Source of the DNA: Roseburia hominis A2-183
GTDB lineage: Bacteria; Bacillota; Clostridia; Lachnospirales; Lachnospiraceae
NCBI RefSeq assembly: GCF_000225345.1
Contig: NC_015977.1
Span: 692,001 to 756,000 of the forward strand
Direction of reading: 5' to 3'
Length of the DNA: 64,000 nucleotides
Part shown: piece by piece, positions 6,611 through 28,789 of the stretch
Numbering within the stretch: the first letter of the stretch is position 1
Layout: each line of letters starts with the position of its first letter
Made by a program: the position numbers and the translations under genes
Notes under the pieces: model-generated
Seen by the model: only the letters and a program-made list of their open reading frames with translations
Told to the model about the DNA's origin: nothing
Databases searched by the model: none

Positions 6611-6618
6611 AAGAGCAC

Positions 6619-6657
6619 AAAAAAGGGGCTGCCGCGTGAAACGGGCAGTCCCCTTTT
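6619..6657 (+). terminator. Terminator of the arabino-oligosaccharide operon (also outer left edge of palindrome A)
   Basis: GGGGCTGCC and GGGCAGTCCCC pair and are followed by TTTT. A mirrored near-copy lies at 7236-7276, so the two terminators form the outer arms of the long palindrome between them. Confidence 0.75.
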
Positions 6658-6930
6658 GGCGTGACACGTAATGGAATGATAAGTAATAGGACAAGAAGAT
6701 CATGCCTCACGATTTCAGATGGAAATGCAGATGGAAATTCTGTTCAAAAATGCGGCATTTCTAACCAGCCGGATATTTGCATCCGCGATGATCCGTGTCT
6801 TTCCAAGTTTGGAACACTCCACGGGTCATGTCCGCACCCCGAAGACAATTTGTAGGACTTTTGTGCCGCCCTTACCAGTACCAAACACCGGATGGCATAA
6901 ATCAGCCATCCTTATGTCGCAATAAAACAT

Positions 6931-7012
6931 AACCGCGCGAAGCCGATGTCTGAATTGTCATCTGCCTTGTTTTTAATAGCAGATGGCAACGAGTTTCGGT
7001 TCGCGCGGTTTT
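6931..7012 (+). ncRNA. Central hairpin of palindromic element A
   Basis: AACCGCGCGAA pairs with TTCGCGCGGTT at the base, and TTGTCATCTGC with GCAGATGGCAA at the tip around a T-rich loop. Compared with element B, the outer pairs of the tip stem change U-A to C-G, U-G to G-C and U-A to U-G. This pattern supports a selected plus-strand RNA stem. Confidence 0.5.
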
Positions 7013-7235
7013 ATATTGTCTATGAGGGAGTACAGTTAGGGCGGCTAGAAAGTCCGCCCATTGTCTTTGGTGTGCCGGACATGTCCCCGTCGGATTGTCC
7101 AAACGTGGAAGAGACACGGAATCCGATGCAAATATCCGGCAGAAAGAAATGCTCTCATTTTTTCACAAAAAATATTCCATCTGCATTCCATCTGAAATCG
7201 AAGGGCATGATTCTCTTGTCCTATTTCTTCTCATG

Positions 7236-7276
7236 CCAAACGGGACTGCCTGCTTAAAGCGACAGCCCCGTTTTTG
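7236..7276 (+). terminator. Mirrored terminator hairpin between element A and the spore-protein gene
   Basis: ACGGGACTG pairs with CAGCCCCGT around a 17-nt loop, with TTTTT following on the plus strand. It is a near mirror image of the terminator at 6619-6657. It lies just past the 3' end of the minus-strand spore-protein gene and may serve that gene too. Confidence 0.6.
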
Positions 7277-23769: not shown

Positions 23770-25548
23770 ATGTTAAGAAAGACAAAAATTGTATGTACGT
23801 TAGGACCGTCGACGGATGATGAGAATGTGATGCGCAGCCTGATCGAGGAAGGCATGAATGTGGCGCGCTTTAACTTTTCACATGGAGGACACGAGGAGCA
23901 GTTTGGAAGACTTACGATGCTTCGCAAGCTGCGAGAGGAAATGAAGCGTCCGGTGGCGGCTCTACTGGATACAAAGGGGCCGGAGATCCGTCTGAAAGAG
24001 TTCGCAAGCGGCAAGGTGGAGCTGAAGAACGGACAGACATTTACTCTGACGACGGAGGATATCGTGGGCGATGAGAGCCGTGTGGCGATCACGTACAAGG
24101 ATCTGCCGGACGATGTGAAGCCGGGAGATACCATTCTGATCGATGACGGACTGATCGGTCTGGAAGTCAAGAAGATCCAGAAAGTATCGGGCACAAAGGC
24201 GGATGCAGAGGGCAAAATGCCGATGGATATTGTCTGTACCGTTATGAACGGCGGTATGGTTTCCAATAAAAAGGGCGTGAATGTTCCGAACGTGGAGCTT
24301 TCCATGCCGTACATCAGCGAGAAAGACTACGGCGATATTGTATTTGCGGTGGAGAACGACTATGATTTCATTGCGGCATCCTTCGTGCGCTGCGCGGATG
24401 ACGTGCTTGCAATCCGCAAGATTCTTGAGGAAAAAGGCGGCGAGGACATTCATATCATCGCGAAGATCGAGAACATGCAGGGTGTGCAGAACATCGATGA
24501 GATCATCCGCGTCTCCGACGGTATCATGGTTGCCCGTGGCGACATGGGTGTAGAGATTCCGCTTGAGGACGTTCCTGTCATTCAGAAGATGATTATCAAG
24601 AAAGTCAGCGGTGCCGGAAAAGTGGTTATCACGGCGACCCAGATGTTGGATTCCATGATGAAACATCCGCGTCCGACCCGCGCGGAGGCGACAGACGTTG
24701 CCAACGCAATCTATGACGGAACAAGTGCGATCATGCTTTCCGGTGAGACGGCTGCCGGCCAGTATCCGATCGAGGCATTGAAGACGATGGTCCGCATTGC
24801 GGTTCGCACCGAGTGCGATATCAACTATCTGCAGCGTTTCAAGGACCGTAAGAATATGAGCAGCCCGGATGTGACGAACGCGATTTCCCATGCAACCTGT
24901 ACGATGGCGGGAGACCTCAATGCGGCGGCGATTCTGGCAGTATCCAAGTCCGGACGCACAGCGCGCATGATCTCCAAGTACCGCCCGTACTCTCCGATCA
25001 TCGGCGCGTGCCTGACGGAGAAAGTATACCGTCAGCTCGGACTTTCCTGGGGCGTTGCACCGCTGCTTCTTGAGCAGAAGAATAAGGCGGAAGAACTGTT
25101 TGACTATGCGGTTGACACTGCAGAGACGGCAGGTCTGATCAGCAAGGGCGATGTGGTTGTTCTGACTGCCGGCGTACCGCTTGGCGTATCCGGAACGACC
25201 AACCTCATCAAGGTGCAGGTGGCAGGACATATCCTGGTAAAAGGAAAAGGAATTGCAGGTAAGAAGATTGCAGCAAACCTGTGCGTCTGCCACAGCGAGG
25301 AAGATCTTGCGAACTTCAAAGAGGGAGACATCATCGTTGCTGCAGATACCAACAACTGCATGATGAAGCAGATGCGTCAGGCATCCGGTCTCATCGTGGA
25401 GGCGGACAGCGACAGCTGCCATGCAGCGATTGCAGGACTCAGCCTGGATATTCCGGTACTGATCGGCGCGAAGAACGCACTGGAGGTATTAAAGTCCAGC
25501 GCTTATGTAGAGCTTGACAGCGAAAACGGAGTTGTGACAGCGATCTAA
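23770..25548 (+). CDS. pyk: Pyruvate kinase with extra C-terminal domain
   Basis: A 592-residue enzyme, longer than the 470-residue E. coli form. The core barrel and B domain hold KIVCTLGPS, FNFSHGGH, the DTKGPEIR loop and MVARGDMGVEIP. The C domain follows. A last segment of about 110 residues is a PEP-synthase-like mobile domain, as in Bacillus and many clostridial enzymes, ending SDSCHAAIAGLSLDIPVLIG, with Cys replacing the usual Ser/Thr before His. It makes pyruvate and ATP from PEP. ATG 23770 follows AGAGGAA, 26 bp after carbamate kinase. Both genes are substrate-level ATP producers. Confidence 0.96.
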   Translation: MLRKTKIVCTLGPSTDDENVMRSLIEEGMNVARFNFSHGGHEEQFGRLTMLRKLREEMKRPVAALLDTKGPEIRLKEFASGKVELKNGQTFTLTTEDIVGDESRVAITYKDLPDDVKPGDTILIDDGLIGLEVKKIQKVSGTKADAEGKMPMDIVCTVMNGGMVSNKKGVNVPNVELSMPYISEKDYGDIVFAVENDYDFIAASFVRCADDVLAIRKILEEKGGEDIHIIAKIENMQGVQNIDEIIRVSDGIMVARGDMGVEIPLEDVPVIQKMIIKKVSGAGKVVITATQMLDSMMKHPRPTRAEATDVANAIYDGTSAIMLSGETAAGQYPIEALKTMVRIAVRTECDINYLQRFKDRKNMSSPDVTNAISHATCTMAGDLNAAAILAVSKSGRTARMISKYRPYSPIIGACLTEKVYRQLGLSWGVAPLLLEQKNKAEELFDYAVDTAETAGLISKGDVVVLTAGVPLGVSGTTNLIKVQVAGHILVKGKGIAGKKIAANLCVCHSEEDLANFKEGDIIVAADTNNCMMKQMRQASGLIVEADSDSCHAAIAGLSLDIPVLIGAKNALEVLKSSAYVELDSENGVVTAI

Positions 25549-25565
25549 GCGATAGCGAATATGTG

Positions 25566-25616
25566 AAAAAGCCTCACGCGGTTCTTCCATGGGAAGACCG
25601 CATGAGGCTTTTTTTA
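25566..25616 (+). terminator. Terminator after pyk (outer left edge of palindrome B)
   Basis: A long stem pairs AAAAAGCCTCACGCGG with CCGCATGAGGCTTTTT, capped by CTTCC-ATGG-GAAG pairing, with T residues after. GAGGCTTTT recurs inverted just past the end of the convergent GH94 gene, at 26216-26226. Confidence 0.9.
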
Positions 25617-26226
25617 AAGGAACTGTCACAATAAGCATAGTCACTTTTGTGTGATAAGTAATATTATAAGATCACACCGTGGGATTTCAGATGGAAATGC
25701 AGGTGGAAATTCGGATCAAAAAATGTGGCATTTCTAACCAGCCGGATGTTTGCATCTTCGATGATCCGTGTCTTTCCAAGTTTGGAGCACTCCGCGGGTC
25801 ATGTCCGCATCCCGGAAGACAATTTGTAGGACTTTTGTGTGTGTCCCTTATGGGCACCTCTGAACAAAACATAACCGCGCGAAGCCGCTGTCTGAGTCGG
25901 CATCTGCCCTATTTTCAATAGCAGATGCCGGCGAGTTCGGTTCGCGCGGTTTTATATTGTCTGTGAAGAGGTGCCATTAGGGACACCAGAAAGTCCGCCC
26001 ATTGTCTCCGGTGTGTCGGACATGCACCCGTCGGATTGTCCAAACGTGGAAGAGACACGGAATCTGATGCAAACATTCGACCGGAAGAAATACTCACATT
26101 TTTCTCTAACGAATATTCCATCTGCATTTCCACACGAAATCCGCAAGTGTGTTTCTTATAATATTACTTATCACTCCCAAAGCGGTCTATGTTTATTGCG
26201 ACAATTCTTTGTGACAAAAGCCTCAG
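25604..26226 (+). repeat. Long imperfect palindromic repeat, copy B
   Basis: This is the second copy of the element at 6619-7276, in the same orientation and filling the gap between convergent pyk and GH94. A perfect 21-bp inverted repeat beginning GTGATAAGTAATATT (25651-25671 with 26154-26174) anchors the arms, and weaker pairing continues outward to GAGGCTTTT on both sides. The left core CCGTGTCTTTCCAAGTTTGG is near 25767-25786; the right core TCCAAACGTGGAAGAGACAC is at 26039-26058. A central hairpin lies at 25873-25951. A one-base length change in an A run against copy A breaks any shared frame, arguing against coding. Confidence 0.85.
25873..25951 (+). ncRNA. Central hairpin of palindromic element B
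   Basis: AACCGCGCGAA pairs with TTCGCGCGGTT, and CGGCATCTGC pairs perfectly with GCAGATGCCG at the tip. Relative to element A several tip pairs differ on both sides yet still pair. Confidence 0.5.
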
Positions 26227-26230
26227 CGGG

Positions 26231-28696
26231 TTATCCCATTACAACCTCGACATTCACGTCTTTCTTTCCGTCCGCGAGTGCGATCGGAATCATGCCGCCG
26301 GAGATGCCGGATACATCGACATCCTTGCCGTCGACGGTCATGGAAATGACGCCCTTCTCCACATGGTTCGGGTTCTTGACAGTCACATGGTAAGTCGTAC
26401 CGCGGAAATCTCTTCTGGCGGTAAAGTCGTCGAGAGAGGACGGAATACACGGATCGATCACCAGTCCGTCATAATCCGGGCGGATACCCAGAATATACTG
26501 GGAGACGTCAAGGAATGTCCATGCAGCTGTTCCGGTCAGCCAGCTGTTCTTGGCCTCCCCGAAATTCCTGGCATCCTTGCCCGCGATCATCTGTGAGTAG
26601 ACATACGGCTCGGTGCGGTGGATTTCGCTGATGTCCTCGATGTAGGCGGGACAGGTTCTGGTGTATACCTGCCATGCACGGCTGCCGCGTCCGACGACCG
26701 TCTCAGCGATTGAGATCCACGGATTGTTGTGGCAGAAGATACCTGCATTTTCCTTGTATCCCGGCGGATAGGAAGAAATCTCGCCAAGTTCTACGTGATA
26801 TCTGTGGTAAGCCGGCTGCAGCAGGACAATGCCATACTTGGTGTCGAGATACTTCTCGACAGACTGCATTGCCTTTAAGCAGTTGCCCTCCTTGAGACCG
26901 ATCTCCGCCATGACGCAGAAGCCCTGTGGCTCGATGAAAATCTTGCCTTCTTCACACTCCTTGGAACCGACTTTGTTCTTGTAGTGGTCATAGGCGCGCA
27001 GGAACCATTCACCGTCCCAGCCGGCGTCAAGAACCGTTTTCTCCATATCGGCGATCGCTTTCTCTGCAACCGCTGCCTCGTCATCCATGCCTCTGTGACG
27101 GCAGATTGCCGCATAGTCTTTTCCGTAGCGCACGAACATGCCGGCGATAAAGACGGACTCGGCATTCGGACCTTCGGACGGACCGAACGTCTGGAACGAT
27201 TCTCCCGGTTCGGTGGAGAAGCAGTTCAGATTCAGACAGTCATTCCAGTCAGCGCGGCCGATTAACGGCAGACCGTGCGGACCGAGGTGCTCCATCGTGT
27301 AGTGGAAGGAGCGGCGCAGGTGCTCCATGAAGTCTGTTGCCTTGGAAGGATCACTGTCGTATGGCGTCATCTCATCTAAGATCGTGTAGTCGCCGGTCTC
27401 CTTGATGTAGGCGGCAGCACCCGCAATCAGCCACAGCGGATCATCGTTGAAACCGCTTCCGATGTCGGAGTTGCCCTTCTTGGTGAGCGGCTGGTACTGA
27501 TGGTATGCGCTTCCGTCCTCAAACTGTGTTGCGGCGATGTCGAGGATGCGCTCCCTGGCACGATCCGGGATCAGATGAACGAAACCGAGCAGATCCTGAC
27601 AGGAATCACGAAATCCCATGCCGCGTCCGATGCCGGACTCAAAATAGGAAGCGGAACGGCTCATGTTGAAGGTAACCATACACTGATACTGGTGCCATAC
27701 GTTCACCATGCGGTCGAGCTTCTCCTCGGAGGAAGAGATGGTGAAGTGGGAGAGCAGTTTGTCCCAGTATTCCTTTAATGCGGCAAGTGCGGCATCCGCC
27801 TTCTCGGTGGTGTCGTAGCGCGCCATCAGGGCTTCTGCCGGTGCGCGGTTGATCACGCCGTCCTCCGGGCGTCCGACCCATTTTTGGTCGATGGGGTTCT
27901 CAATGTAGGCGAGAACGAACACGAAAGTTTTAGATTCGCCCGGTGCCAGCGACACGGAAAGGTGATGCGAGCCGACCGGAGCCCAGCCGCTTGCCATGGA
28001 ATCCTTGGAAGCACCGGTGACAACCACCTCGGGAGCGGAATTCTCTCCGTATGCGCCGAGGAAGGAATCACGGTCGGTGTCAAAACCTGCGATCGGAGCG
28101 TTGACCGCATAGAGCGCGTAGTGATTGCGGCGCTCGCGGTATTCCGTCTTGTGGTAAATTGCGGAACCGTGAACCTCTACCTCACCGGTGGAAAAATTAC
28201 GCTGGAAGTTCGTCATGTCATCCATGGCGTTCCAGAGGCAGAATTCCACGTAGGAGAAAACGGAGAACGTCTTTGGCGCGCTGCCGTTGTTGGTGAGTGT
28301 GAGCTTGTTGATCTCGCAGCTGTCGTCGACCGGAACAAAAGCGGTCAGCTCTGCGGAGAGATCATTCTTGGAACTGCGGAAGGTGGAATATCCCATGCCG
28401 TGATGGCACTCATAGGAATCCAGCTCGGTCTTTGTGGGCATCCATCCAGGATTCCAGATTGTATCGCCTTCCTTAATATAGTAGTAATGACCGTTGCTGT
28501 CGAACGGGACGTTGTTATAGCGGTATCTGGTCAGACGCAGGAGCTTTGCGTCTTTATAAAAACTGTATCCGCCGCAGGTGTTGGAGATCAGGGAAAAGAA
28601 ATCCTTTGATCCCAGATAGTTGATCCACGGAAGCGGTGTCCGCGGAGACGTGATGACGTATTCTTTCTTCGCATCATCAAAATAGCCGAATTTCAT
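26231..28696 (-). CDS. Cellobiose phosphorylase, GH94
   Basis: An 821-residue cytoplasmic enzyme beginning [15 protein letters not shown], as in known cellobiose phosphorylases. It has an N-terminal beta-sandwich, an alpha/alpha barrel and a C-terminal strand domain. Conserved catalytic-site text includes [17 protein letters not shown] and RADWNDCLN, whose Asp is the expected general acid. It converts cellobiose and phosphate to glucose 1-phosphate and glucose, saving ATP. The ATG at 28696 lies behind GGAGGT; an upstream in-frame ATG overlaps that site. It is divergent from a LacI regulator with shared operators and a binding-protein ABC importer, so it should act on imported cellobiose or cellodextrins. 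Confidence 0.93.
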
Positions 28697-28789
28697 GGGC
28701 TTACCTCCATTCATATCATGTAAGCATACGCATTTCCGAAACGTCCGTTACGAAAATAGGTAAGTGAATTGTTCAGATTGAAATAATTG

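Follow-up and report, generated by a model that had tools for sequence, protein, structure and literature searches.

A near-palindromic repeat family of Roseburia hominis A2-183 whose arms covary without an overall strand signal

Prokaryotic MITEs such as ERIC, RUP, QMITE2 and others are ORF-less, repeated and intergenic sequences with inverted repeats and stable folds, as described in extracts of PMC10969869. The repeat family considered here resembles them in all of these features, and the same extracts present QMITE2 as a host of IS1111, which has a parallel in the IS110-family element lying inside two copies of the present family (L067 and L130). Unlike the MITEs, the family is near-palindromic over its whole 600 bp and has conserved asymmetric loops together with an apical module. 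Moreover, target duplication was not found in 29 copies and no parent insertion sequence is known, and for these two reasons the family is not filed as a proven MITE. REP and REPIN elements, which are associated with RAYT transposases, are likewise dispersed extragenic palindromes near gene ends (extracts of PMC3116915 and PMC3733652), but they measure 20-40 bp against 600 bp here, and five of the seven genomes that carry the present family lack the Y1 transposase.

Template switching is described, in extracts of PMC8794818 and PMC8604942, as rewriting several bases of one quasi-palindrome arm from the other, so that the arms are made alike, and one copy of the family (L097) has been rewritten in this manner. 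The present case differs in its arms of about 300 bp, its 83 paralogues and the resistance of most of its loops to rewriting. The attC sites of integrons share a logic with the family, namely a fold kept with little sequence conservation and with asymmetric unpaired bases (PMC2727003, in extract), whereas the present elements are far longer and dispersed singly beside terminators; the likeness is one of logic only. Covarying stems and conserved loops are also features of the structured RNA families in Rfam, from which the present family differs in having no wobble preference; the window, that is, the whole 64-kb stretch of DNA analysed, gave no Rfam match at gathering cut-offs and none that was credible at E values up to 5. 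No tRNA or tmRNA was found. Neither such a foldback family nor a comparable confusion of signals was recognised in the literature searched, at the level of titles and the beginnings of abstracts.

The family in the window, the genome and the genus

The window holds three copies. Copy B (25617..26211, plus strand), delimited by the family consensus ends and by its fold, is near-palindromic, measures about 595 bp and lies inside the interval 25604..26226 that had been singled out by a sequence-only reading. It stands between a pyruvate kinase gene upstream (23770-25548, plus strand) and a convergent frame of 827 aa on its far side (26231-28714, minus strand). Overlapping mechanical frames excepted, no open reading frame of at least 80 aa lies wholly within it. 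Its left end abuts a terminator-like hairpin 3' of the pyruvate kinase gene (inverted repeat I5, 25566..25613, plus strand), and a mirrored piece of this hairpin is found past its right end (inverted repeat I7, 26216..26239, plus strand). The apical hairpin module of B (25863..25968, plus strand), of about 106 nt, has an asymmetric internal loop and a TTTTAT tail; it is defined by its row (L047) in A2, an alignment of 71 apical modules from the source genome, by covariation and by a match to R1, a covariance model of the module, at genome positions 717863-717967. Copy A (6618..7276, plus strand), recognised from its inverted repeats and fold, has terminator-like hairpins in both outer arms and its apical module at 6921..7027 on the plus strand (row L046 of A2; R1 match at genome 698921-699026). 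Beside its apex, in the left arm only, copy A has an extra small hairpin (6878-6923), as does L064, and copies about 33 nt longer than the others seem to form a subfamily. Copy C (L131; 33759..34232, minus strand), which the sequence-only reading did not include, was located by a left-arm pattern search. Its arms are as in A and B in the opposite orientation, it lacks the apical module and it sits between tandem genes. The core of B (536 nt) folds at -291.8 kcal/mol, against a mean of -147.7 for shuffled sequences (z -24.2, reached by 0 of 100 shuffles), and the fold of A is likewise beyond chance in the shuffle test (z -22.7).

About 83 family loci, some of them damaged or partial, are dispersed over the genome (3,592,125 bases, one contig). 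They comprise 74 matches to a 22-nt apical motif with up to three mismatches (58 exact; control 0), one locus found via the arms and eight found via the left-arm pattern; the motif matches lie 34 on the forward and 40 on the reverse strand. The consensus of 75 copies, among which L105 was taken on the wrong strand, has 256 paired positions, and its inverted arms reach the element ends. Terminator-like hairpins occur in the outer arms of family copies. The apical module is missing in L126, L129, L132 and L133 as it is in copy C, and in L127 (genome ~2172.1 kb) it has lost an internal segment between two direct repeats, TGTCTG. Conversely, L032 (genome 68112) consists of the apical module alone, without the long arms, and given this lone copy the module may be a separate unit. 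Two copies, L067 (~1988.2 kb) and L130 (~491.1 kb), are each interrupted near the apex by an insertion sequence. The frame in L067, which was checked against Pfam, is an IS110-family transposase, and the two inserts look like the same insertion sequence at the same relative position.

Within a set of 62 genomes of the genus, including the source genome (G000), the core query recovered diverged homologues of 68-78% identity in G077 (7), G073 (5) and G082 (1). At an E threshold of 0.001, R1 matched in 9 of the 62 genomes, with at least 63 matches in the source genome, 12 in G073, 7 in G077, 6 in G070, 4 in G010 and one each in G082, G062, G020 and G027. The single matches in G020 and G027 are weak and, in their sequence, not convincing. 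Those of G010 are weak singly (E 2e-4), but all four loci (L190, L197, L202 and L207) are long palindromes of a repeated kind that share the loop letters, and L197 and L202 have a further inserted segment in one arm. Six genomes of the genus besides the source genome carry diverged relatives. Over four genomes the internal loop TGTYTGAG / CGAGTT and the TTT.AT tail are nearly invariant. Outside the genus, a provisional search of 294 other genomes of the order, with 13 candidates scored per genome under strict filters, gave two weak matches. A BLAST search with the whole element had given no match in 59 other genomes (35 from the genus); since the core query and the structure model later found relatives, that negative is a matter of sensitivity and sampling. 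A phage or plasmid origin received no support from 50,697 phage and 72,556 plasmid records (0 matches). The apical pattern was absent from viral contigs and had two chance-like matches in genome contigs, a set from which near records of the source genome were possibly excluded. Judged by these searches, the family has so far been found in one genus.

Covariation and the strand question

The comparison of A and B from which the analysis started is sound in its details. The two sides of the tip stem are placed correctly (AACCGCGCGAAGCC at 6931-6944 and 25873-25886; GGTTCGCGCGGTT at 6998-7010 and 25939-25951), and the outer arms have changed together, with AATAGGACAAG (6685-6695) mirrored by CTTGTCCTATT (7215-7225) in A and AATATTATAAG (25660..25670, plus strand) mirrored by CTTATAATATT (26155..26165, plus strand) in B. 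The three contrasts drawn between the tip stems of A and B, U-A against C-G, U.G against G-C and U-A against U.G, are also correct (A2 columns 36/68, 38/66 and 35/69). Columns 34/70 of this stem give a fourth contrast, which had been omitted and which would favour the opposite strand: A has A.C there and B has G-C.

A shuffle test over many copies bears out the covariation. In the source genome, both partners have changed in 13 of the 32 apical pairs, a count that none of 500 shuffles reached, and the alignment exceeded every shuffle on each of the five measures. Similarly, both partners vary in 18 of 27 pairs of a four-genome alignment (25 sequences), which exceeded all 500 shuffles on four of the five measures, the fifth (further pair types) being reached by 3 of 500. 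When the partner columns are slid by 1-3 positions, the apical covariation vanishes. Along the full length of the arms, 11 pairs distinguish A from B by a double change from one Watson-Crick pair to another, and the tree has 511 single-branch double changes at the true pairs against 179-277 at 16 slid pairings. These whole-arm counts, like the clustering and tree counts given below, come from an alignment of 68 copies (251 pairs in the tree), with L032, L061, L064, L067, L071 and L076 (damaged or split), L105 and the eight loci of the left-arm pattern set aside. The observation made on A and B is hence confirmed: these are near-palindromic repeats whose arms covary far beyond chance.

Covariation is ordinarily taken to prove that an RNA is functional. 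A structured RNA would mean that one strand is transcribed into a long hairpin, that the loops are its working parts and that the compensations result from selection on the RNA, and the sequence-only reading had held that the wobble pairs favour the plus strand. A G.U pair on one strand is an A.C mismatch on the other, so that a plus-strand RNA should have more G.U than A.C. The tree gives 379 changes from Watson-Crick to G.U and 376 to A.C (510 to other mismatches; 180 returns from G.U and 203 from A.C). Self-pairing of 75 copies, with both types scored alike and L105 on the wrong strand, gives 741 G.U and 780 A.C, and the six other genomes, with 25 elements, give 345 and 377. The minus strand is therefore supported equally, which had been named beforehand as the outcome that would refute the claim. 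Between A and B themselves, one-sided steps lead to or from A.C at nine pairs and G.U at five. Given this overall equality, the data do not support the view that a plus-strand RNA gave rise to the covariation, and as a general claim that view fails.

The balance is less even locally. In the apical module of the source genome G.U cells lead A.C cells by 77 to 36, 62 of the 77 coming from three columns, and by pair columns the count is 10 against 13. In the four-genome apical alignment G.U leads by 17 to 10 cells and by 10 to 7 columns. Along the arm the two stand at 48 against 25 in one of six bins and at 42 against 69 in another. The uneven bins and the apical lead of G.U leave room for a local plus-strand signal near the apex. 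An RNA would also account for the covariation itself, for the near-invariant loop and tail in four genomes and for the retention of asymmetric loops in most copies. Against it stand the overall equality of G.U and A.C, the lack of an Rfam family, the orientation of the element at tandem sites (along the genes at 22 and opposed to them at 13; 9 of each where the context is clear) and promoter-like sites at chance level in B (2 found, 1.3 expected). A structured RNA is, all told, unlikely, and the kind of base change described next speaks further against it.

What keeps the arms alike

Compensated changes from one Watson-Crick pair to another on a single branch number 301, and 111 of these are transversional, for which there is no path through a G.U wobble. 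In L097 the sequence of the left internal loop has been replaced by one exactly reverse-complementary to the right arm, so that a perfect stem of 32 nt is formed; its sister on the tree, L100, retains the loop. L097 shows arm-to-arm copying directly. The sequence-only reading had left the paired changes to either selection for the fold or gene conversion between the arms. Conversion is favoured over plus-strand RNA because of the transversional compensations and the overwritten loop of L097, and selection for the fold keeps a possible share. The two arms of a copy are more alike than arms of different copies in 16 of 16 bins, and identity between copies, left arm to left arm, runs from about 0.5 in the outermost bins to 0.98 at the apical stem (72 copies, without L032, L067 and L071 and with L105 on the wrong strand). 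The compensated changes are clustered (23 adjacent against 11.8 expected, 1 of 500), but one-sided changes cluster as well (155 against 97, 0 of 500), and tracts of compensated changes are therefore not specific enough to prove copying. Loss of SbcD as the cause of the persistence of long palindromes was ruled out by a match above cut-off in the source genome (154 bits); such a match is found in 29 of the 62 genomes of the genus.

The evidence leans, by a modest degree, to the view that B is one of about 83 foldback, ORF-less and non-autonomous mobile-like elements of about 600 bp near terminators, whose arms are kept complementary by copying between them at the DNA level. We infer that such copying is the main cause of the complementarity and that an enzyme acts in trans. 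The element would settle immediately 3' of genes, at transcription terminators or next to them. Copying of one arm from the other, whether by template switching, by hairpin-templated repair during replication or by arm-to-arm conversion, would be the main reason for their lasting complementarity, and a putative enzyme acting in trans would move the element and read conserved features of its folded apex. Paired changes that arise by copying between DNA arms need no strand-specific transcript.

Plain copying from arm to arm should erase the loops, and their conservation counts against a purely mutational account. Clear erasure is found only in L097 among the 83 copies. Five asymmetric loops retain their left/right difference in 71-76 of the 83 copies, part of the rest being ambiguous or without the module, and the apical loop is conserved between species, so that a fold may be under selection. 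In the DNA form of this reading, a recombinase or other protein would recognise a cruciform or a folded single strand, as with attC, and would keep both the pairing and the loops. The strand symmetry is expected where both strands fold, the asymmetric loops are conserved and conservation is strongest at the apex. Nevertheless, no enzyme was found, copying is seen in L097, and in the self-pairing of 75 copies (L105 on the wrong strand) about 18% of the aligned pairs depart from Watson-Crick, so that selection on single pairs over some 250 of them would be weak. As the sole keeper of the arms, selection on a DNA fold is decidedly unlikely.

Insertion sites and significance

Gene contexts were taken from the longest open frames, and 50 of the 83 loci are clear on both sides. 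The sites are convergent at 46 loci, tandem at 35 and divergent at 2 (31, 18 and 1 among the clear 50), gene-orientation counts that stand without a genome-wide base rate for comparison. Of the 83 copies, 81 have one or both neighbouring frames directed towards them, and 105 of the 127 frames so directed stop 240-420 nt from the centre of the element. It is very unlikely that the element simply serves the host as a bidirectional terminator or intergenic spacer: these frame positions, the terminator-like hairpins of the outer arms and the apical TTTTAT tract would suit such a role, but in relatives an ordinary terminator, with no element, separates the same pairs of genes, matches occur in just 9 of the 62 genomes of the genus (two of them weak single ones), and loops conserved over 600 bp surpass the needs of termination.

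Empty sites were observed directly. At the locus of B, the pyruvate kinase gene lies within the fetched stretch in 2 of 19 relatives, where gaps of 131 and 163 bp hold no palindrome; in the other 17 no palindrome was found downstream of a pyruvate kinase gene. The neighbours of L065 we take to be scpA and scpB. Of the 24 relatives fetched for this locus, 22 have the neighbour. The site is empty in 21 of these, the terminator standing bare in G020, for example, and only G077 has a palindrome, directly after the T run of the terminator and in the orientation opposite to that of G000. Likewise, both species hold an element between the same two genes at L072/L159, again in opposite orientation. 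The element pairs at L072/L159, at L065/L165 and at four loci matched by one flank are no closer to each other than to other copies (ranks 33, 21, 50, 60, 59 and 36 of 79). Such matching loci are either sites that were hit twice or the outcome of homogenisation within each genome together with flipping.

No target-site duplication was apparent in 29 copies with recognisable ends: the longest word shared by the two flanks averages 4.28 nt within a copy and 4.43 nt across copies, and it reaches 7 nt or more in 1 of 29. The Y1 transposase (PF01797) is present in G000 and G070 and had no match in G077, G073, G082, G062 and G010, some of which are incomplete drafts. With no match in five of seven carriers, Y1/RAYT was ruled out as the mobiliser, and this check of the seven carrier genomes for Y1 yielded no mobilising enzyme.

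The flanks themselves are mirrored to some extent beyond the element. The score averages 17.0 against 14.0 in 29 copies (0 of 5000 permutations), and only three of the 29 exceed the 95th percentile of cross comparisons (20), namely B, L033 and L034 with 32, 44 and 32. A mirrored flank piece is also found at the G077 copy of the L065 locus. A more far-reaching proposal, which is doubtful at present, is a new class of bacterial mobile element that would move as a folded single strand of DNA or RNA, have its conserved asymmetric apical loop read by a dedicated enzyme, home to transcription terminators and lengthen its arms by duplicating the neighbouring terminator arm on the opposite side; the four mirrored cases bear on this last step.

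For R. hominis and its relatives, the family is an abundant set of repeats with a conserved apical structure in several species. It is also a warning case, in which very strong covariation comes with no overall strand signal. The 83 paralogues in one genome offer a test bed for how frequently arms are rewritten and for which loops resist it.
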